In this document: piece by piece, positions 9,050 to 48,830 of the stretch | Layout: the number at the start of each line of letters is the position of its first letter | Position numbering within the stretch: the stretch's first letter is position 1 | Source of the DNA: Thermoprotei archaeon | GTDB taxonomy: Archaea > Thermoproteota > Thermoprotei > Gearchaeales > WAQG01 | NCBI GenBank assembly: GCA_038881895.1 | Contig: JAVZOV010000003.1 | Coordinates: forward strand, 318,916 to 382,915 | Length of the DNA: 64,000 nucleotides | Direction: 5' to 3' | Translations under genes and position numbers: made by a program | The notes under the pieces: model-generated | Databases searched by the model: none | What the model was told of the DNA's origin: nothing | Seen by the model: the letters and a program-made list of their open reading frames with translations, nothing else

Positions 9050-10210
9050 ATGCGTATAGCTCTGGTTACGGAGACTTTTCCACCATTCAATGGTGGTTCG
9101 TCTAGACGTTATTTCGAAGTCTTTAGGAGGTTAGTCAAGAAGGGTCACGAAGTCGATGTTTTCACCGTTAGGTTGAATGAGAGTTGGAGTAAGTTCGAGG
9201 AGATCGATGGATTGAGAGTTTTTAGGACAGACATGGTTTTAAGAAATTTCATTACTTCTGATGGTTTTAGGTCTATTTCCCAAGTCCTTTTGTACACTTC
9301 TTGGGCATGGAAGCGTTTAGGAAATGAACGTTACGATATCATCGAAGCCAATCACTGCCCCATCTTCCCCACGTTCTCCTCTTGGTACCACTCTAGGGTT
9401 AATCACATACCCCTATCCGTAACTTTTCATGAAGTTTGGTTCGATCATTGGTACCACTATGTACCATCGAGCATCTATGCACCGCTGGGGATGATCATGG
9501 AGAAGGCCATGAGCCGCCTTCCATCTCTTTATATCGCTGTGAGCAGATTTACAGCCGATAAACTAGAAAAGTTGTTACATATAGATAATAGGAAGATCGT
9601 TATCATTCCCAATGGTGTTAATTTGGATATGTTCAATGGTGTCGATGTAAAGAAGGATAGAAATAAGATCATATATTTCGGTCGTTTAAATCCTCATAAG
9701 AGAGTTGACCTCCTTTTGGAAGCAATGAAGATCGTTATAGAGGATTACCCAGATGTGAAGTTAGAGATCGTTGGTGATGGTCCCATGAGAAGGTTTTATG
9801 AAGAGTATACATTGAAGAATGGATTAAAAGACCATGTGTCTTATATAGGTAATGTTAGCGATTTGGAGTTGGTGATAAAATTGAAGAGTTCGTACATATA
9901 CGTTCTACCTTCCATTAGAGAGGGACAGAGTATAACGACTCTGGAGGCCATGGCCGCTGGAACTCCTCAGGTCGTCGTCATGAGCGATGATAGTGGAGCT
10001 TCTCAATTGTTACATGAGAGTAAGAGTGGCATCATCGTTCGAGCATCTGCCCTTTCCATAGCTGAGGGTATCAAGATGCTGTTGGACGATAGGAATTCAT
10101 GGTTAAAGTTTCGAGATAATGGCTTGAAGTACGTGAAAAATTATACGTGGGATTTCGCCGCCGAAGAGTATAATAGGGCATATACAAGTTTGGTTAATTA
10201 TATGGCATGA
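9050..10210 (+). CDS. Glycosyltransferase, GT4 family
   Basis: A 386-residue GT-B fold retaining glycosyltransferase. The N-terminal acceptor domain opens with IALVTETFPPFNGG. The C-terminal donor domain shows IIYFGRLNPHKRVD near residue 204, VGDGP near 242 and the EX7E motif in REGQSITTLEAMAAG near residue 290. It should transfer a sugar from a nucleotide donor to a growing lipid-linked glycan on the cytoplasmic face. Its stop overlaps the next start by 4 bases (ATGA), opening a chain of five co-oriented genes with several large membrane proteins. Confidence 0.88.
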   Translation: MRIALVTETFPPFNGGSSRRYFEVFRRLVKKGHEVDVFTVRLNESWSKFEEIDGLRVFRTDMVLRNFITSDGFRSISQVLLYTSWAWKRLGNERYDIIEANHCPIFPTFSSWYHSRVNHIPLSVTFHEVWFDHWYHYVPSSIYAPLGMIMEKAMSRLPSLYIAVSRFTADKLEKLLHIDNRKIVIIPNGVNLDMFNGVDVKKDRNKIIYFGRLNPHKRVDLLLEAMKIVIEDYPDVKLEIVGDGPMRRFYEEYTLKNGLKDHVSYIGNVSDLELVIKLKSSYIYVLPSIREGQSITTLEAMAAGTPQVVVMSDDSGASQLLHESKSGIIVRASALSIAEGIKMLLDDRNSWLKFRDNGLKYVKNYTWDFAAEEYNRAYTSLVNYMA

Positions 10211-12252
10211 ATATTCGTAGACCACTGTACAAGTTAATGCCCATTGTGAGTTTGATCGTAGTTTACATCATCGTTTATTACCTACTAATTTCTAACGTCC
10301 TCTTTACCAAAACTGGAGACATCGTATGGTTAAGCGCTATGAATGATTTGTGGGGAAGTTATTACAGGTACAATTCCTTCGCTATCGTAACTTTTGCATT
10401 GAATTCTCTCACATTATCACCTATGTTAAGTATGAACACAATCATTTTACTGTTCTTCATTACTCTTTTTATTCCTGGATACTTATTCATTACGAGAATT
10501 GCTAAAAATGCGTTTTTAGGATTTTTGGCCGGTATACTTTTCTTAGCATATCCAATTAACATTCAGCTTATTGAAGAATCTAAGTACGATATCTTCTCCA
10601 GCATCGTAGTATTGGGCATCACCATGTACGTTTTTTACTCGATCTGTGATAGGCACGATGTTCGTGCTTTGCTCATTCTATTCACTTCATCTTTAGTAGT
10701 TAGTCTATTTTCTCCATACAGTGGCATGGTATACTTCCTTTCCATTTTTGTGTATTATGTTAGAGACCTTATTAAGGGTAATACTAAGTTTTTGGGCAAC
10801 GTCCTCTCCGTTTCTCCATCCCTTCTATTATATTTTCTGCTACATAGAGAACCCATCGGTAGTGAGTTTATTAGTCTAGAACTCCTCCCTCTGTTCTTCT
10901 TAGTCTCCTCCGGTATCATAGGAATGTTGTACATGCACGCTCACCTTATTAATGGGAAGGGCAACATTGTACTGCTATCATGGTTCATCGGCATCATCCT
11001 TGCGTCTTTACTGAGCTTTGACGCTGGTGTGTTTTTAATTTACGGTCAATACCCTCTGGTAATTTATGCCATATTTTTACTTGGCTTTGGCGCTCGTAAT
11101 CTCTACAGCATAGTTAAGAGGGAGGGCGAAGAACTCACAGTTGAGATAGATGTGCTTAAGTTGGGTGCCATCCTATTGACCACACTTCTCTTCATTTCTA
11201 GCGTAGTAGCATCCATAAACGTCTATGGTACTTCCATCAATTCGAGCAGATTATTCCTCGATATATATGGAAATAATGATCTGATCGAAGCACTCAATTG
11301 GATTTCAAAAAACACAGATAGAAATGCCGTGATAGTTTCAGAGTATCCGTTGGGTTCTTGGATAAATCTCTACACTGGCAGACCAACTCTTGAGAACAAA
11401 CCCAGTAGTTTAAACATCAGCATGAAGGATTTCTTGTCCAGCTACGATGCCGATAGTATTTTGAATTCCAACTTTGAGATTAGGAACAGGTACATCCGCG
11501 TTAGAGATTGGAGTCCCGTAGCTCCACAACGAGATCCAGTTATTGGCTCTAGTGATGGTTATAATTATGTGGATTTCCTATACATTGACGAAAATCATGC
11601 CAAGGTGAAGTACGTCTTAGATGGAAAAACAGTCGAACCCGATTTCTACAATTACAAGAGTACACATTCTGAGTGGATCTATAGAAATGATAGTAGTGCA
11701 ATGCTCCACCATGTTTATCTGTTGGATGGCGTTAGGATCGATAAGTATCTGACAGTTAGTAGAAGTTCAGAAGTGAAAATAGTATACAATGTGACCGGAG
11801 GAAGTGATGTAAGGATCTTAGGTTTCAGTTTAAAGTTGTGGATTCCTTGGGAGAGAAAGTTGGGATTCACTCAAGTAAAGAACAATACTTTCAGTGTATC
11901 GATGGATTCAGGCGATTACCAGGTTATCGTGAGTAGCAGGTTAATGAATATGAGCTTTGGTCCAGACGAGAAGTGGACTCAGTATAGATTGTTGTGCAAT
12001 TATGAACCTATCGGGAACAACATTTACACCGAAATCATCGTGAAAGCTCTAAATGCAAAGAGTGTATCATGGATGGATGATAAGATCGTAGCAATTTCTG
12101 CCGACGAGTTGATGGCTAAGTATAGAGTCGCATACTTGGTTGTTCCTACGATCATCAAGAAGGAGTTCATGGATAGATTTGGGTTAGACTACAGTAGGTT
12201 CAAATCTCAATTCGAGAATGAGAAGATAACCATCTATAAGGTAACACTATGA
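10207..12252 (+). CDS. GT-C-like polytopic membrane protein with large extracytoplasmic domain
   Basis: A 681-residue protein. The first half (to about residue 335) is a run of roughly ten hydrophobic helices. The second half is soluble and presumably outside the membrane. It begins with ALNWISKNTDRNAVIVSEYP near 355, a segment aligned with the WIRYNTEPNS block of the next two genes, and contains many N-X-S/T sequons. Overall layout resembles lipid-linked-sugar-dependent GT-C enzymes of the GT39/AglB type, but the acidic first-loop motif is weak here (GDIVWLSAMNDL). The function is inferred from topology and context. It overlaps its neighbours by 4 bases on each side. Confidence 0.6.
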   Translation: MNIRRPLYKLMPIVSLIVVYIIVYYLLISNVLFTKTGDIVWLSAMNDLWGSYYRYNSFAIVTFALNSLTLSPMLSMNTIILLFFITLFIPGYLFITRIAKNAFLGFLAGILFLAYPINIQLIEESKYDIFSSIVVLGITMYVFYSICDRHDVRALLILFTSSLVVSLFSPYSGMVYFLSIFVYYVRDLIKGNTKFLGNVLSVSPSLLLYFLLHREPIGSEFISLELLPLFFLVSSGIIGMLYMHAHLINGKGNIVLLSWFIGIILASLLSFDAGVFLIYGQYPLVIYAIFLLGFGARNLYSIVKREGEELTVEIDVLKLGAILLTTLLFISSVVASINVYGTSINSSRLFLDIYGNNDLIEALNWISKNTDRNAVIVSEYPLGSWINLYTGRPTLENKPSSLNISMKDFLSSYDADSILNSNFEIRNRYIRVRDWSPVAPQRDPVIGSSDGYNYVDFLYIDENHAKVKYVLDGKTVEPDFYNYKSTHSEWIYRNDSSAMLHHVYLLDGVRIDKYLTVSRSSEVKIVYNVTGGSDVRILGFSLKLWIPWERKLGFTQVKNNTFSVSMDSGDYQVIVSSRLMNMSFGPDEKWTQYRLLCNYEPIGNNIYTEIIVKALNAKSVSWMDDKIVAISADELMAKYRVAYLVVPTIIKKEFMDRFGLDYSRFKSQFENEKITIYKVTL

Positions 12253-14384
12253 AGCTCAGGACCTTCGTAGGGATCGTCGCTCCCATTCTGATAAATTCTA
12301 TAATATATTACAACGTTTTCTGGAAAGATGCATTTCCTCCCATAAACGATCCTGCAATATGGTTAAAGTATGCGAATGCATTGCTGGGGAACACTTATCC
12401 GTTGTGGAATCAAACCGTTCTTCAATATCCACCATTCTTTAACATGCTACTAGCATTGCTCATCATGCTAACTAATGATCCTCTGCTATCCGTGAAGTTC
12501 CTCGGTATACTCTTGATCATCGTTCTACCCCTAGCTTCTTATCCCATGGCCAAGGAGCTATCTGGGAGTGAATTTGGTGGCATAGCATCAGTATGGCTCT
12601 TCAGCTTCCATCCTTCCCTTGCTGAGATGTACGGTTGGGGTGGCTATCCAAACCTACTCGCTATCATGTTTTTGCTATTATCAGTTTATTTTCTCTATAG
12701 AACGTACGTGCACAATGATAAAAAATCGATGATCTGTGGCTTGATTACCGCTTCTCTCTTAGTTCTAACCCACCATCTGACCACAATCGTATATGATGCT
12801 TTAGCTTTTGCGTGGTCGTTCATAGTTTTATATAGATACCTGGTCGGTAAGCCTTTCCCTGGAAGTAGAAGAATCATTTTCATCTTTTTTGTATCCGGCG
12901 TAGTTTTCGTTACGTGGAGAATCATTGCTGGACCCTTTCAATACATACTCTTCAATTATTCTTCCCTTTTCATTAGACCCTTCAATCTGGATGCATTCTG
13001 GTGGATATTCAAGGATCCGATCGTAACTACTCTATTGTTCATCATGAGCACCATAGGTTTCACATCCTTGTACCTTACTGATGTAAATATGAGGGATTTC
13101 CTAATGATCTTACTCGTCTGGATCATCTCCCCCTTTCTCTTCACTCAATCGTACATAGTTGGTATAGCCTTAGATTACAGGAGATTTCCAATGTTTTCCG
13201 TTCCTCCCCTATTGTTATTGAGTTCTTCCGTTGTAAGATTATTATCCCCTTTAGATTGGATCAAGAAGTTCGATGGATCAGTTCATATCGATGCCAGTAA
13301 GGCTCTACTGATTGGATTGCTAATTACACTAATTACTATGAATTTTATCAGTGGTGTTGTAATGCCTGGTAAGGTCTACGATTATTTTCACTACCTCAGC
13401 GATTATGCCTATGGTGTCAATGAAAAGTTGGATGCTCTGAATTGGATACGTTACAATACCGAACCCAACAGCACCTTTGTAGCAGATGAATTCATCGGAA
13501 GATGGATTGAAGGTTATGCAGATAGGAGAGTCCTCATGACCCTTTCCCCCTATCAGATATTCATAGTTGGAGAGTACGAGAGGTACGAGGCATCTAAGCT
13601 GGTGATGGATGGTAACATAGAATTGAGGAACGAATATCTGAGGATCCTAGACACATCTAAACACGATGGTAACGAAATTTTATGGATAAGTACATCCGAT
13701 GGTTTGGATTACAATGGAATCGTGTATTTGATAGATGGAACGTTCGACGTCATCTTCACGTATTCTGGAAATGTATGGGTCGAATCTCCATACAGAGCAA
13801 ACATAACTAGTGTGAATTGGCTCGTGAGGAACAATACTGAGGCTAGCATAGAAGTAAAGTATAGATCTAAATCTTTAGAGATCGTTAGGATCATCGATTT
13901 AAAGGCCAATTCAAAAGTCGTCGTGGTTAGGTACATTGTCAAACCCATCATAGGTGCCACGCTGTTGAAGGCACATCTTCCCATATGGATACCCTACAGT
14001 AGTAAATTAGACGATGTATTGTTCTACAACGGCACATTGCATGCATACGTTAACGGTGTTCCCTTTTATGTAAGAATATTGAACGGGAATAGTAGTTATG
14101 AAGTCGGTCCCGATAATAAGTGGGGACAGACAAGAATTCAATACACGTTCAATGCCTCCAACAATATGATCGATTACAGAGTTGAATTGACATTTCCCAA
14201 CGCTAAGAAGAGTGTATGGGGCTACGACCTTTACGCTTCCACATTCGATGAAGTAGTGAATAAGTACAATGTTAGCTACATAGTTTTATCCAAAGTGAAA
14301 GATGATTTCATCAGGTTTCTGAAAGATCCTAGGATGGTCGTTGCATATGAGAATGATAAGATAATCATATTCAAGGTGAAATAG
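12249..14384 (+). CDS. GT-C-like polytopic membrane protein (paralogue)
   Basis: A 711-residue protein with about a dozen hydrophobic helices before residue 380 and an extracytoplasmic C-terminal domain. The first loop has PPINDPAIWLKYANAL, an acidic residue at the position where GT-C enzymes carry catalytic acids, and later YGWGGYPNLLAI, which the next gene repeats. Residues about 398-427 are encoded by an 86-bp stretch identical to one in the next gene. It is probably a dolichyl-phosphate-sugar-dependent glycosyltransferase, from topology. The ATGA overlap with the upstream gene suggests translational coupling. Confidence 0.62.
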   Translation: MKLRTFVGIVAPILINSIIYYNVFWKDAFPPINDPAIWLKYANALLGNTYPLWNQTVLQYPPFFNMLLALLIMLTNDPLLSVKFLGILLIIVLPLASYPMAKELSGSEFGGIASVWLFSFHPSLAEMYGWGGYPNLLAIMFLLLSVYFLYRTYVHNDKKSMICGLITASLLVLTHHLTTIVYDALAFAWSFIVLYRYLVGKPFPGSRRIIFIFFVSGVVFVTWRIIAGPFQYILFNYSSLFIRPFNLDAFWWIFKDPIVTTLLFIMSTIGFTSLYLTDVNMRDFLMILLVWIISPFLFTQSYIVGIALDYRRFPMFSVPPLLLLSSSVVRLLSPLDWIKKFDGSVHIDASKALLIGLLITLITMNFISGVVMPGKVYDYFHYLSDYAYGVNEKLDALNWIRYNTEPNSTFVADEFIGRWIEGYADRRVLMTLSPYQIFIVGEYERYEASKLVMDGNIELRNEYLRILDTSKHDGNEILWISTSDGLDYNGIVYLIDGTFDVIFTYSGNVWVESPYRANITSVNWLVRNNTEASIEVKYRSKSLEIVRIIDLKANSKVVVVRYIVKPIIGATLLKAHLPIWIPYSSKLDDVLFYNGTLHAYVNGVPFYVRILNGNSSYEVGPDNKWGQTRIQYTFNASNNMIDYRVELTFPNAKKSVWGYDLYASTFDEVVNKYNVSYIVLSKVKDDFIRFLKDPRMVVAYENDKIIIFKVK
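13443..13528 (+). repeat. 86-bp perfect repeat, copy 1
   Basis: From TGGATACG to GATAGGAG this stretch is identical, base for base, to 15633-15718 in the neighbouring paralogue, while the DNA on both sides differs. It encodes WIRYNTEPNS onwards to GYADRR. Confidence 0.9.
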
Positions 14385-16571
14385 ATGCAATTTCATCGCA
14401 AACAGCGGGATTGGACCGTTAGGACCCTCCTATTCCTATCTTTCCTCATACCATTCGCCTATTCGTGGTACTACCTGTCCAGTAGAACAATGCCCATGTG
14501 GAGCGACCCAGGCGAGTGGCTCAAGTATTCGAACGCCATAGAAGCCCATTTAGCTTTAACGATCGGATTAAATGAGGATGTTTACAAATATATGCTGTAT
14601 CCCATGTGGAATCAGGGAGTCTGGCAGTATCCACCCCTCTTCTTCATAATCCTAATCCCATTGATAAAACTGCTCAATCCATTCTTAGCTCTAAAGTTGA
14701 TGGGTAGCCTCCTCTTGTCCCTGCAACCCATACCAACATACTTCATATCCAAGAGGATCACAAAATCTAGGATTGGAGGTTTATTGGCAGCTTACATATC
14801 TTCTTTGATGCCTTTATACCTTGAAATGTACGGCTGGGGTGGTTATCCGAACCTAATGGGTTTTCTCTTACTGGCCACGAACATCTACTTCACTCTAGCC
14901 GCCATCGAGGAAGGAGGAAAGAAGTATTTTTCTTTGATGCTCTTAACGAGTATGCTGATACCCCTGACCCATCACCTGACCACCGGTATACACCTGGGCG
15001 TTCTTGGATTATGGATGATCATGATGAACATGATGAAGAAGCTTAGTGAGATCAGGTATTTAGCGTACAATTTTTGCACTAGCTCGGCAACGTTGTTTTT
15101 ATATAGGATCATCCTCGCATATCCATCTCAGTTCGTTACATTCAACGAGGCTGCCTACTACAGCTTACGAGTAGATTTTTTGAACACCATAGTTTGGCTC
15201 TTCAAATCTCCTATCCTTATGAGTATAGTAATCATCATAGCTATCTACCTATTCCTAAAGAGAAATATCCTAGATAGAAGATACCAAGCATTACTGCTAA
15301 GCTGGACACTCTTCCCCGTGCTTGCTACACAAGGTTACTTATTCAATTTTACAATAGATTACAATAGAGTGTTCTTCTTTGCGGTTCAACCTATACCCTT
15401 GATAGTGGCGTCGCCCTTCACCTCCATCAACTCATTGGATTTGAACGGCATGTTTGGATCGATAAATTACAGTTCCATCAAGAAGTATACCGTGGCAATT
15501 GCAATTATAGTGATCGTTGTGCTATCTCCATTTCTGTTCCTCCTCGCAGGTTTTGAGACCATGAGGAATGTAGTAGGATGGTATAGTTCTCAAGATCCTT
15601 ACGGTGATATCGACAAGGCTGCGGCATTAAAATGGATACGTTACAATACCGAACCCAACAGCACCTTTGTAGCAGATGAATTCATCGGAAGATGGATTGA
15701 AGGTTATGCAGATAGGAGGACACTCCTCTACATGGAACCAAGGTTCCTCTTCATAGAGGGACAGTTAGATAGATATTACATAGCTTCGTCCATCCTACTT
15801 TCCAATCATGAGATAAGAAATAAATACTTTAGAGTCATGGACCAAACTCCGTATAGTACCAGTTTTAGCCCATCATTATTTGTTTGGTCGAAAGGAGAGT
15901 ACAAAGAGACCCTGTTCGTCAACGATACTAGACTAAACCTAGAAACCTCCAATAAGACTTATTCAGTAGGCGAGAACAAAACTAAAGCAGAAGTCTCTGT
16001 CAAAAGCGATCGGGATTCTTCGAAGATAATAACAACTTATAACATTATGAACAGGACTTCAATGATAACCTCAATAGTAAAGACCATTGAGGTTTACGAG
16101 AAACCTCAAGCAACCTTGAAGTACGACGTGCATAATGTGAGTGGAAATATGACGATAGAACTCAACGTATTCCCTTCGAGAAAGGTGAGCTTGGTCGAAA
16201 TTACTCCTAGACTAATAACATTACATTTGGACATTGGAGTAGTGAGAATAAGCATCAACACGCCATCTCGAATAGAGAATCCTACTGAGCATACTCTATT
16301 GATAACATCCAAGATGAATGATAGTTTTCCATTAATCATAACAGTGAGCACCTCCGGTGATGAGTATAATAAAAATTTAAATGACATAATACTAATTAGA
16401 AGTAACGAACTGATAAACGATTATGGCATCGATTACATAGTTGTTCCCAGAGTTAAGAATATGAGATTGTCAACTTGGGATGTTTACCAGTTTTTACTAA
16501 AGAAGTACGAAGTTAGCTACGTAAATGATAGAGTCATAATCCTATCGTCAGGTAGGAATACTTCAGCATGA
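14385..16571 (+). CDS. GT-C-like polytopic membrane protein (paralogue)
   Basis: A 728-residue protein of the same design as the preceding gene: DPGEWLKYSNAI in the first loop, YGWGGYPNLMG, a hydrophobic half to about residue 390, then an extracytoplasmic half with many sequons. It begins directly after the preceding stop. Residues about 416-445 are encoded by the shared 86-bp block. Downstream of that block the two soluble domains differ strongly, suggesting different acceptor or substrate specificity. Assignment as a lipid-linked-sugar glycosyltransferase rests on topology and neighbours. Confidence 0.62.
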   Translation: MQFHRKQRDWTVRTLLFLSFLIPFAYSWYYLSSRTMPMWSDPGEWLKYSNAIEAHLALTIGLNEDVYKYMLYPMWNQGVWQYPPLFFIILIPLIKLLNPFLALKLMGSLLLSLQPIPTYFISKRITKSRIGGLLAAYISSLMPLYLEMYGWGGYPNLMGFLLLATNIYFTLAAIEEGGKKYFSLMLLTSMLIPLTHHLTTGIHLGVLGLWMIMMNMMKKLSEIRYLAYNFCTSSATLFLYRIILAYPSQFVTFNEAAYYSLRVDFLNTIVWLFKSPILMSIVIIIAIYLFLKRNILDRRYQALLLSWTLFPVLATQGYLFNFTIDYNRVFFFAVQPIPLIVASPFTSINSLDLNGMFGSINYSSIKKYTVAIAIIVIVVLSPFLFLLAGFETMRNVVGWYSSQDPYGDIDKAAALKWIRYNTEPNSTFVADEFIGRWIEGYADRRTLLYMEPRFLFIEGQLDRYYIASSILLSNHEIRNKYFRVMDQTPYSTSFSPSLFVWSKGEYKETLFVNDTRLNLETSNKTYSVGENKTKAEVSVKSDRDSSKIITTYNIMNRTSMITSIVKTIEVYEKPQATLKYDVHNVSGNMTIELNVFPSRKVSLVEITPRLITLHLDIGVVRISINTPSRIENPTEHTLLITSKMNDSFPLIITVSTSGDEYNKNLNDIILIRSNELINDYGIDYIVVPRVKNMRLSTWDVYQFLLKKYEVSYVNDRVIILSSGRNTSA
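15633..15718 (+). repeat. 86-bp perfect repeat, copy 2
   Basis: Second copy of the block at 13443-13528, in the same reading frame of the paralogous gene. Perfect identity at synonymous positions points to recent gene conversion. Confidence 0.9.
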
Positions 16572-17986
16572 ATTCAAGTAAAAAACTGAACATTGTTATA
16601 AACGATAAGTTATTCATGCTAACAGCATTCGCCGTTGGAGTGGTGATTAGAGTCATACCTGAGATTCAATTTCCATATCCGATAGGGTTCGATACACCGC
16701 TATACCTCGCTATGGGAAAATATTACGCGCATCATTTACTACCATTTCCACTATTCTATACTCTACTTGGGGTATTATACCTAATGGGGATGGATCTATT
16801 GTATGCAATAAAGATCTTACCAACGTTGGTATACGGTCTGTTAGCTTTCTCCGTATTCAGGTTCGCTAAGAATTATCTAACATGGAGCAATGAAAAGTCC
16901 CTCCTAACAACCATTAACGCAGCATTGTCAGTTGCACTGTTGAGGATGTCGTGGGATATGCACAAGCTAACTTTGGGGATTGCATTGATACTCCTCACAT
17001 TATCATACTTGAAAGAGGTAAAGGATGAGAAGAAGCTCCTTCCATTCTTCATCCTATCAGTATTGACAATCTTTTCACATGAATTGATCACAGTAACATA
17101 TCTTGCAATCCTATCAGTCTTACTAATACATGGTAATTTTAAAGATAAGATGCCCTTTCTAACAACATTGATATTTGGTTTACTCGCGTTTCTGGGAGTA
17201 TGGTATATAAATGATTTGAATAGAGTGTTTAGATGGATATTTGATGCCTTTAAATCAGTGCCATTCTCCAATTCAATTCCGGAACTTTATTTCAACGGAG
17301 GACTGATTGCAAAATTATACCTTCTATCGATCCCCCTGTGTGCTGTGGGATTCTTCAAGGATAAGATCTTGAGTACATGGTTGACGTTTACGTTTCTTGG
17401 TTCCATTTCAACGATACTATCACCAACTTTCTTATTGGGCGGAATACTCCCATGGAGATATATTCTTCTATTAACCATTCCAATTTCCATGTATGCTAGC
17501 AATGGTATTGCAAAAGTGAGTAACGGAATTAAAAAGATATCCAATAAGTTGAAAGGTAAATCCGTACCATTTGCCTTCATTCTTATAATATTAATCAACA
17601 TACCTACCGTCTCATTTCTTGGAGTTACAAATTGGCCACAGATCTATACATCCGAAAGCATAATACCCTCTAACATGATTCAGACATCTATACCGATCTA
17701 CGACATTGAGCCAACCATAAACCTTCTAAAGAGAATAAATGGTAATACAACTCTATTGATTTATGGAGATTTCGTAGGATGGGCATCGTATTATAGTAAT
17801 GCCAACATAATTACCTTCGGAGGAACTTATGGAATTAAACCAACATTAAAGGATGCATTAAGCCTGATAAAAGACAAGACCGATGTATACTTGCTTTATT
17901 GGGATGATGAGTCAGCTGGAAAGTTAGGGTTTAGAGTAATAGCTACGGATAATCATCTAAAATTATACAAATATTTTGGTGAATAA
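16568..17986 (+). CDS. Polytopic membrane protein, GT39/PMT-like
   Basis: A 472-residue protein made almost wholly of hydrophobic helices, with a short C-terminal soluble tail. The first loop reads FPYPIGFDTPLYLAMGKYY, placing an Asp where GT-C enzymes have a catalytic acid. It lacks the long extracytoplasmic domain of the three genes before it. A 4-base overlap with the upstream gene makes it the last member of the five-gene chain. It is probably a glycosyltransferase using a lipid-phosphate-sugar donor, but this is inferred. Confidence 0.58.
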   Translation: MNSSKKLNIVINDKLFMLTAFAVGVVIRVIPEIQFPYPIGFDTPLYLAMGKYYAHHLLPFPLFYTLLGVLYLMGMDLLYAIKILPTLVYGLLAFSVFRFAKNYLTWSNEKSLLTTINAALSVALLRMSWDMHKLTLGIALILLTLSYLKEVKDEKKLLPFFILSVLTIFSHELITVTYLAILSVLLIHGNFKDKMPFLTTLIFGLLAFLGVWYINDLNRVFRWIFDAFKSVPFSNSIPELYFNGGLIAKLYLLSIPLCAVGFFKDKILSTWLTFTFLGSISTILSPTFLLGGILPWRYILLLTIPISMYASNGIAKVSNGIKKISNKLKGKSVPFAFILIILINIPTVSFLGVTNWPQIYTSESIIPSNMIQTSIPIYDIEPTINLLKRINGNTTLLIYGDFVGWASYYSNANIITFGGTYGIKPTLKDALSLIKDKTDVYLLYWDDESAGKLGFRVIATDNHLKLYKYFGE

Positions 17987-44643: not shown

Positions 44644-44865
44644 CTACATTGCTGAATCAACGTAGTGTTTGGAGTATCTCCACTCTCGTAGCAATTCATC
44701 CCTAAGCTCTCTCCTATCCTCTCTATCGAATTCAAGGTGAGCCTTCTTAGAAATCTTAACGTGTGAGAAGATTGCGTCTAAAGCCTTCCGCTTAACTTTG
44801 AAGTATTCTTCGATTAAATCCTTCGGAGCTTCTACTGGGACCCTGTAGCTTTTAACTGCTTCCAT
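44644..44865 (-). pseudogene. tnpB: TnpB N-terminal fragment (HTH-tnpB unit, copy A)
   Basis: 73 residues, MEAVKSYRVPVEAPKDLIEE to WRYSKHYVDSAM. They match the first about 95 residues of the complete TnpB at 52658-53875 (GWVYSKHYVDSAIKQAYS) and are interrupted right after that YSKHYVDSA motif. The RuvC nuclease and zinc finger are absent. It overlaps the HTH gene by 34 bases. Copy B at 48591-48830 is similar in sequence and breaks within a few bases of the same place. Confidence 0.75.
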
Positions 44866-45017
44866 AACCTCTCAACCTCGCTCCTCGGGTAGCGGAGCTT
44901 GCCAGTTGGGAGTTTAACAGCTCTAATAATACCCCTCTTCTGCCACTTCCAGAGCGTTTTAACTGAGATACCGAACTTCTTAGCGACATCCTTTGGTCTA
45001 AGCAGTTCTTCTTCCAT
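44832..45017 (-). CDS. MerR-like helix-turn-helix protein of IS607-type element (copy A)
   Basis: 61 residues: MEEELLRPKDVAKKFGISV, KTLWKWQKRGIIRAVK, LPTGKLRYPRSEVERLW, then ATGSQ. This is the DNA-binding domain found at the N-terminus of IS607 serine recombinases, but the catalytic domain (with its Ser and Arg motifs) is absent and the protein ends where tnpB begins. The ATG at 45017 lies about 30 bases after a TTTAAATATT box inside the left-end sequence. It may act as an element-specific binding protein or be a decayed transposase. Confidence 0.65.
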   Translation of the reverse strand: MEEELLRPKDVAKKFGISVKTLWKWQKRGIIRAVKLPTGKLRYPRSEVERLWKQLKATGSQ

Positions 45018-45040
45018 CAAAGAGTTAATAGAGTTAAACA

Positions 45041-45070
45041 AATATTTAAACCTATCTATTCCAAAACTGT
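45041..45070 (-). repeat. IS607-type left-end sequence (copy A)
   Basis: On the minus strand this reads CAGTTTTGGAATAGATAGG then TTTAAATATTT. The same word with few changes occurs at 48386-48415, 54102-54130 and 51611-51638. It holds a TATA-like box for the HTH gene. Confidence 0.6.
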
Positions 45071-45073
45071 TGA

Positions 45074-45327
45074 CCACGGCGGTTTGGAAGAAGATAGGAC
45101 TAATCCCGATGAGGGAGCACGAGTTCACGTTGGCGGACGGTACGATGGTGAAGAGGAAAGTTTCGGAGTGTTATATATTCTTACCACAAGGAGAAGGACA
45201 TACACCCGTCGTACTAGGTGAGGCTGACGATCATGCCCTACTAGGTGTTGTAACGTTGGAGATCCTAGGTTTGGTCTTCAACCCCTTCAAACGTACTCTG
45301 CAACCGATGAGAATGCTACTCGTCTAG
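45074..45327 (+). pseudogene. Aspartyl protease-like protein, C-terminal fragment
   Basis: Reads TTAVWKKIGLIPMREHEF, TLADGTMVKRKVSECYI, VVLGEADDHALLGVVTLEIL, GLVFNPFKRTLQP. This matches the C-terminal two thirds of single-domain clan AA aspartic proteases: the LADG strand and ALLGVVTLE psi-loop are intact. The N-terminal DTGA active-site strand is missing and is replaced by the truncated HTH-tnpB unit running antisense. The open frame that extends leftwards to 44899 is antisense insertion sequence DNA and not part of this protein. Confidence 0.65.
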
Positions 45328-48341: not shown

Positions 48342-48385
48342 TCTTTAAAATTGAATAAACCTGATTACGTAGAATGCCGTGGTCA

Positions 48386-48415
48386 ACAGTTTTGGAATAG
48401 ATAGGTTTAAATATT
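48386..48415 (+). repeat. IS607-type left-end sequence (copy B)
   Basis: CAGTTTTGGAATAGATAGG then TTTAAATATTT, the same as copy A near 45.05 kb but in the opposite orientation. A shared GCCGTGGTCAA precedes it in both copies. Confidence 0.6.
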
Positions 48416-48438
48416 TGTTTAACTCTATTAACTCTTTG

Positions 48439-48624
48439 ATGGAAGAAGAACTACTTAGACCAAAGGATGTTGCAAAGATATTCAACATCTCAGTTAAGAC
48501 TCTTTGGAAGTGGCAGAAGAAAGGCATTATTAGGACTGTTAAACTCCCAACTGGCAAGCTGAGATATCCCAAGAGCGAGGTTGAGAGGTTATGGAGGCAG
48601 TTAAGAGCTACAGGGTCCCAGTAG
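48439..48624 (+). CDS. MerR-like helix-turn-helix protein of IS607-type element (copy B)
   Basis: 61 residues: MEEELLRPKDVAKIFNISV, KTLWKWQKKGIIRTVK, LPTGKLRYPKSEVERLW, then RATGSQ. It differs from copy A at several residues, so the two copies are not a recent duplication. The serine recombinase catalytic domain is missing in both. The 3' end overlaps the tnpB fragment by 34 bases in another frame. Confidence 0.65.
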   Translation: MEEELLRPKDVAKIFNISVKTLWKWQKKGIIRTVKLPTGKLRYPKSEVERLWRQLRATGSQ

Positions 48625-48830
48625 ATGTTCCAAAAGATTTAATCGAAGAATACTTCAAAGTTAAGCGGAAGGCTTTAGACGCAATCTTCTCACACGTTAA
48701 AATTTCTAAGAAGGCCCACCTTAACTTGAAAGCTGAGGATAGGAGAGAGCTTAGGGATGAACTGCTACGAGAGTGGAGATACTCAAAGCATTACGTTGAC
48801 TCAGCAATAAAATGGCAAGCTGATGTCTGA
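48591..48830 (+). pseudogene. tnpB: TnpB N-terminal fragment (HTH-tnpB unit, copy B)
   Basis: 79 residues from MEAVKSYRVPVDVPKDLIEE to WRYSKHYVDSAIKWQADV. Similarity to complete TnpB ends after YVDSAIK. Nuclease domains are absent. With copy A it forms inverted repeats of about 450 bp that bracket the ClC gene and the ATPase gene. Confidence 0.75.

Follow-up and report, generated by a model that had tools for sequence, protein, structure and literature searches.

How do two genes that have diverged to the point of saturation at silent sites come to share a stretch of DNA without a single difference? The question is raised by a window of 64,000 nucleotides from a Thermoprotei archaeon (assembly GCA_038881895.1, contig JAVZOV010000003.1, positions 318,916 to 382,915 of the forward strand), in which two adjacent paralogous genes for STT3/AglB-like membrane proteins, here called B and C, contain the same 86 bp. 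Recombination normally requires much higher similarity, and conversion between genes with saturated silent sites is therefore unexpected. Nonetheless, we conclude with high confidence that the identity is the product of a recent, presumably non-reciprocal ectopic gene conversion between these adjacent, ancient paralogues, most likely seeded at a conserved segment.

Extent and identity of the tract

The tract lies on the forward strand, at window positions 13443..13528 in gene B (12249..14384, 711 amino acids) and 15633..15718 in gene C (14385..16571, 728 amino acids). All 86 bases are equal, and exact identity extends by 0 bp on either side. In both genes the tract is in frame 0 and comprises 28 whole codons followed by the first two bases of an arginine codon: codons 399-426 and two bases of codon 427 in B (WIRYNTEPNSTFVADEFIGRWIEGYADR/R), and codons 417-444 and two bases in C. 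The original prediction had described identity at every base between flanks that differ, and both parts of this description hold. Outside the tract, B/C identity drops to about 20-55% (sliding 60-bp windows at the same offset), 30.6% of aligned residues are the same, and at fourfold sites where B and C encode the same amino acid the third position is equal in 24 of 65 cases. This is approximately the expectation for independent codon choice; the flanking silent sites are saturated. Gene A, a third paralogue, keeps the segment only loosely (11 of 29 residues), as had also been predicted.

When the codon columns of the B/C alignment are permuted 2000 times, the longest identical run to arise is 23 bp, as compared with the 86 bp observed. 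Given the same amino acids, the probability of 28 equal codons in a row is approximately 5e-12, based on the codon usage of 11 window genes. With 0 differences in 86 bases, the rule of three limits the divergence of the two copies to less than about 3.5%; hence, the event is young compared with the genes themselves.

A repeat search reports the B/C pair as a 124-nt repeat at 86%, but the extra 38 nt upstream (13405..13442 before the copy in B and 15595..15632 before the copy in C, both on the forward strand) are only partly similar. In a codon alignment with the orthologous operon described below, the upstream stretch in B has orthologue-like residues, which places it outside the converted patch; the residues of the corresponding stretch in C are also orthologue-like. 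The tract pair is the sole direct repeat of at least 40 nt in the window, and the whole genome contains two copies of the tract.

Comparison with an orthologous operon

How old are the two genes themselves? A Bathyarchaeota-labelled contig (record JAGTQD010000054.1; locus L030) has the same A-B-C-D gene order, with similarly tight junctions. Protein identity to the respective L030 counterparts, B2 (L030:1860-4004) and C2 (L030:4001-6151), is 48.7% for B and 47.5% for C. Since L030 contains one syntenic orthologue for B and another for C, the duplication that gave rise to B and C predates the split and is older than the tract.

The residues on either side of the tract match the orthologues far better than they match the neighbouring gene. 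In the next 30 residues to the right, B matches B2 at 20 and C matches C2 at 26, as compared with 8 matches between B and C. To the left, the corresponding values are 15/28 (B-B2), 18/26 (C-C2) and 6/26 (B-C). Inside the tract, where B and C are identical, 17/29 residues and 50/87 bases match B2, and 19/29 residues and 56/87 bases match C2. The last arginine codon is AGA in B and B2, and AGG in C and C2, placing the right breakpoint inside that codon. The flanks follow the orthologues; the tract is tied to its own genome. Identity within a genome together with difference between genomes is the pattern that the original prediction had put forward as the check for conversion, and it is the pattern we observe.

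No tract is common to B2 and C2: their longest exact run is 21 bp, at another motif, and the permutation maximum for this pair is 22 bp. That motif, GWGGYPN, is encoded by near-identical DNA at L030 2247-2275 and 4439-4467 (29 nt, 93%, 21 exact). It may represent a third seed, or a very short, older patch, and is not significant by permutation.

Survey of related genomes

Matches were found in 38 of 398 genomes of the phylum, with at most two candidates scored per genome. Our sample consists of 32 of the 38 matched genomes together with L030 (G085, G090, G144, G156, G231 and G358 were left out). After two duplicate entries were dropped for G005, a genome of the same class as the source genome (G000), the sample contains 75 genes in 33 genomes, with 53 within-genome pairs in 32 genomes; by hand count, all but one of the 33 genomes contain a paralogue pair. 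For within-genome pairs trimmed to the profile-matched region, the longest exact runs are 118 bp (G005) and 86 bp (G000), followed by 21, 21 and 15 bp. The longest exact run in 300 randomly sampled between-genome pairs, of a total of 2722, is 26 bp. When all 2722 between-genome pairs are compared untrimmed, two pairs between G187 and G309, which are near-identical genomes, have runs of 2008 and 315 bp, and runs elsewhere are 74 bp or less. We discounted untrimmed within-genome runs of 49, 41, 34, 31, 28 and 25 bp, and several smaller ones, as these come from neighbouring stop-to-stop frames that overlap, such that the same DNA is counted twice. Hence, tracts were found in 2 of 32 genomes, both in the subfamily closest to the window genes.

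The original prediction regarded the same DNA block in distant relatives as an observation that would speak against it. With the 86-bp tract as query, only its own genome, among the 398, yields a full-length match; five others match over 21-27 bp. Plasmids contain no match to 186 bases around the tract, and viral contigs contain neither a match to its 51-base core nor a relative in a protein-based scan. On the basis of the nucleotide searches, we rejected the tract as a widespread mobile piece.

At E ≤ 1e-20, homologues occur in 2 of 81 genomes of the class, the source genome and G005, and we found no homologue-bearing genome of the source genome's own family, order or genus. In the class of genome G171, homologues occur in 1 of 44 genomes at E ≤ 1e-60. 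A 935-amino-acid homologue in G171 (L066, G171:C3:12000-22000) matches profile positions 497-649 twice, indicating a repeated stretch in its C-terminal domain.

Converted patches in a second genome

Genes of the A and B types are present in G005, along with two C-like genes, C5a and C5b, on two contigs. C5a and C5b share an exact tract of 118 bp (permutation maximum 33 bp), which overlaps the same protein position as the window tract (EEPMARWIEGLAGRRVMMHLHPMYLFMTGELERERIARA). A second patch common to the two genes spans 110 bp at the first extracytoplasmic motif (RALPWWSDGGNWLKHMNAILGNTYPMWEEGTYQYPPL); it is made up of exact runs of 53 and 56 bases with a single synonymous mismatch in between. 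Between the two patches the DNA is diverged. When the longest tract is excluded, C5a and C5b agree at 36 of 93 fourfold sites even with the N-terminal patch still counted in; thus, the rest of the two genes is saturated. The DNA of the G005 tract differs from that of the window tract, which shows that these are separate events.

With respect to the G005 assembly, C5b runs off contig G005:C47, and a matching C-terminal fragment starts contig C15 (L004, G005:C15:51-365). The two contigs may therefore join within C5b, next to the gene labelled B5.

Position of the patches and residual DNA similarity

Why do the patches occur where they do? We determined the DNA similarity of unconverted paralogue pairs in windows of approximately tract length, leaving out the genome under test. 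The position of the window tract is at percentile 95.9, that of the G005 C-terminal tract at 95.7, and that of the G005 N-terminal patch at 89.0. In L030 alone, the window corresponding to the tract is at percentile 98.4; the top-scoring window is offset by four residues and begins at residue 395. The segment covered by the tract is among the most conserved of the family, and it includes the sequence GRWIEG, common to the B and C orthologues in L030. The patches coincide with the most similar DNA of the paralogues. This supports seeding by residual homology, i.e., that patches sit where the paralogues are still alike enough to pair. However, selection for shared function would favour the same positions, and hence these data do not separate seeding from selection.

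Mismatch repair genes

Of 12 genomes tested, one (G256) has a match to MutS_V and none has a match to MutL; 11 of 14 control genomes were positive in both searches. Neither MutS_V nor MutL has a match in G000, in G005 or in the L030 genome. A missing MutS/MutL barrier to imperfect pairing fits with conversion between genes as diverged as B and C.

The proteins encoded by genes B and C

What kind of protein does the tract belong to? A structural model of the gene B product, built from 6 sequences, has a mean pLDDT of 71.3, with values of about 86-91 in the tract and below 60 over much of residues 229-384. The model matches PglB (Foldseek E 5.7e-8), human STT3A (VIA-align Z 22.3, root-mean-square deviation 5.1, 457 aligned residues) and Archaeoglobus fulgidus AglB (VIA-align Z 21.5, root-mean-square deviation 4.1, 417 aligned residues). 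As modelled, B is a GT-C membrane fold with a C-terminal globular domain of the oligosaccharyltransferase type. A profile comparison against 16 AglB sequences from related genomes is consistent with this assignment (probability 96.2, E 2.7e-9) and spans both the membrane part and the tract. In the profile alignment, ALNWIRYNTEPNSTFVADEFIGRWIEGYADRR in B lies opposite ALAWMKANLPRNSVIASWWDYGYWITVNTG in the AglB of the same genome, such that the tract covers the counterpart of the AglB WWDYG segment. In oligosaccharyltransferases, the WWDYG segment is described as helping to bind the Ser/Thr of the acceptor sequon (PMC8342417).

WWDYG itself is absent from B, where the aligned segment is ADEFIG as compared with SWWDYG in the genome's AglB. 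The Pfam STT3 family (PF02516) is not among the matches of A, B or C at E ≤ 0.01, and the single PF02516 match of the genome (E ≤ 0.001) is the separate AglB, encoded elsewhere. For these reasons we refer to the proteins as STT3-like rather than as oligosaccharyltransferases. Searches of A-D against Pfam and NCBIfam returned no confident family, and neither did a profile search of PDB sequences. Asp34 of B is invariant in 7 sequences and is a candidate for an acidic, DXD-like motif of the first loop. In the model, B residues 456-652 resemble, with Z about 14-15, the beta-sandwich domains of GH97, GH129-type, glucoamylase and PL33 enzymes; a C-terminal domain of this kind would be an unusual partner for an STT3-like membrane part.

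Genomic neighbourhood

Genes B and C are part of a tightly packed series on the forward strand. Gene A (10207..12252, 681 amino acids), the third and more distant paralogue (26% protein identity to B and 22% to C), lacks the tract. Its end overlaps the ATG of gene B, and gene C begins at the first base after the stop codon of gene B; the B and C proteins are 30% identical. Gene D (16568..17986) encodes a membrane protein of 472 amino acids and follows C, as its orthologue does in L030. These genes were delineated as open reading frames. Upstream of A is a GT4 glycosyltransferase gene identified by Pfam (9050..10210, forward strand); a protein that, judged by eye, resembles it (388 amino acids) is encoded beside C5b in G005. 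The surrounding genes include GT4 and GT2 glycosyltransferases, a polysaccharide-biosynthesis membrane protein and sugar-nucleotide epimerases, which suggests, from gene content, a surface-glycan cluster.

Elsewhere in the window there is an inverted repeat (44648-45080 and 48376-48808) with arms of 433 nt that are 90% complementary and 3295 nt apart. It encloses a chloride-channel-like and an ATPase-like open reading frame, both named by eye, and is possibly a mobile-element remnant pair.

Discussion

Our data are best explained by an ordinary ectopic gene conversion at conserved active-site motifs, a process that is real, recurrent and of a known kind. How might it have happened? We propose that one of the two genes suffered a break or a stalled fork, which was repaired with the neighbouring gene as template. 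Strand exchange would have been seeded at the segment that opens the extracytoplasmic domain, the WWDYG counterpart, as the sole stretch with enough DNA similarity. Short-patch repair synthesis would then have copied about 86 bp, and would have halted where the paralogues cease to match. In Sulfolobus, short and discontinuous conversion patches are on record, and the same source describes hyperthermophilic archaea as lacking MutSL homologues (PMC4471258). The missing MutS/MutL barrier may have helped.

Several observations weigh against this explanation or parts of it. Tree tests for the donor are flat: p values of the approximately unbiased test range from 0.118 to 0.821, the placements differ by no more than 4.2 likelihood units, and none of them is rejected. 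The tract is approximately equally far from B2 (17/29) and C2 (19/29), which leaves room for a third donor; between the two genes, we lean slightly towards C as donor. Genomes without tracts also lack MutS and MutL, and hence the absence of these proteins is permissive at most. Of the 32 genomes that have paralogue pairs, only 2 contain tracts, so that the case for recurrence depends on two lineages, and the overlap of an 86-bp with a 118-bp tract in genes of ~2150 bp is expected by chance in roughly 9% of cases (hand arithmetic). Lastly, the window tract is known from the assembled sequence of one strain.

Did selection, rather than similarity, determine where conversion is visible? This is a variant of the conversion explanation rather than an exclusive alternative: conversion occurred, and its visible location would have been set by selection that favoured an identical active-site patch in the two enzymes. 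In G000 and G005, the WWDYG-like segment and the first extracytoplasmic motif are where the patches are located, and the archaeal mtrA-1/mtrA-2 pair is a case for which selection is argued in PMC4632066. However, DNA similarity alone predicts the same positions, and selection is thus not needed as an explanation. We consider a role of this kind rather unlikely, though worth keeping in mind.

A second alternative is that both copies were overwritten from a third source, either a lost paralogue or incoming DNA. The near-equal distance of the tract from B2 and C2 is what such a source would produce, and the flat tree placement is compatible with it. However, two events would be required, the genome contains no third copy, no full-length match was found elsewhere among the 398 genomes of the phylum or in plasmids, and the 51-nt core has no match in viral contigs. 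We therefore regard a third source as quite improbable.

Could the identity be an artefact, i.e., a chimera or a wrongly polished copy? The genome is an assembly of 7 contigs, which speaks for this reading. Nonetheless, each copy is embedded in its own orthologue-like flanks, in an A-B-C-D order that recurs in L030, and an independent tract is present in a second genome, G005. A collapse would have removed a gene rather than yielded two full ones, and an 86-bp repeat is shorter than ordinary reads. An artefact is accordingly very improbable.

Besides recent conversion, which is supported by the contrast between flanks and tract in the L030 comparison, the original prediction had offered joint constraint on protein and nucleic acid. 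In that reading, selection would keep the two copies identical, with no copying. In favour of constraint, few other segments of the family are as highly conserved, and GRWIEG is found in both B2 and C2. Yet the orthologous DNA has diverged (50/87 bases equal to B2 and 56/87 to C2), and tract residues that are not conserved in the orthologues are still identical between B and C. RNA folding of the two tract regions is ordinary (z 0.57 and -1.43), and the calculation above leaves a probability of ~5e-12 for 28 equal codons by chance. This half of the prediction, contradicted by both L030 and G005, is extremely improbable. Finally, a recent duplication of a larger segment, with flanks that have diverged since, accounts for the shared tract and nothing beyond it, and has next to no probability, being refuted by the saturated flanks (24/65 silent sites equal, against 0 differences in 86 tract bases) and by the separate syntenic orthologues of B and C in L030.

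What is the significance of gene conversion at this site? The window provides a clean example of conversion between genes with saturated silent sites, with breakpoints placed within a few bases. Because G005 has independent patches both at this site and at the first-loop motif, the idea that a conserved motif seeds recombination becomes testable; indeed, our data suggest that conserved enzyme motifs are repeated landing sites for gene conversion. We also put forward, tentatively and with more doubt than belief, a broader proposal: in archaea without MutS/MutL, the conserved catalytic-site motifs of ancient tandem STT3-like enzymes would be self-renewing seeds, such that repeated short-patch conversion causes the active sites of paralogues in one genome to co-evolve while the rest of each protein diverges. 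A word of caution follows for sequence comparison, in that short motif identity between paralogues may reflect copying and not functional convergence. These considerations are relevant to the diversification of archaeal surface-glycan enzymes.

How does this case compare with known systems? In overall fold, B is closest to STT3, AglB and PglB, its best structural matches, and the profile match runs across the membrane part and the tract; in contrast, the window genes lack WWDYG and a Pfam STT3 call, and the genome's own AglB is encoded elsewhere. Among the results listed by our literature searches, no report of gene conversion in this enzyme family (glycosyltransferase/oligosaccharyltransferase) appears. 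New here are three points: the phenomenon recurs in G005, the patches fall on the WWDYG-like and first-loop segments, and their positions are linked to residual DNA similarity. Conversion between old paralogues that is confined to a functional part is itself already described, for archaea (mtrA, PMC4632066) and for bacteria (RF1/RF2, PMC4530459). For Sulfolobus acidocaldarius, short, localised and sometimes discontinuous tracts are likewise reported in an archaeon in which MutSL homologues are absent (PMC4471258); those tracts come from laboratory recombination with donor DNA carrying silent markers, whereas the window case involves paralogues with saturated silent sites. RF1 and RF2, paralogues of ancient divergence, are described as having been converted twice independently, each time in the region of common function (PMC4530459). 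There, nearly a whole domain is involved and detection was by phylogeny; the conversion described here is recent, exact at the DNA level and much shorter. The closest parallel is the recurrent conversion of mtrA-1/mtrA-2 in methanogenic archaea, which is likewise described for ancient archaeal paralogues in one operon, such that in independent lineages one functional part is kept homogeneous within a genome and another part diverges (PMC4632066). In that case a whole domain is homogenised to 92.4-99.7% identity; in the case of the STT3-like genes, conversion is confined to patches of 86-118 bp in genes that otherwise share about 31-42% protein identity.

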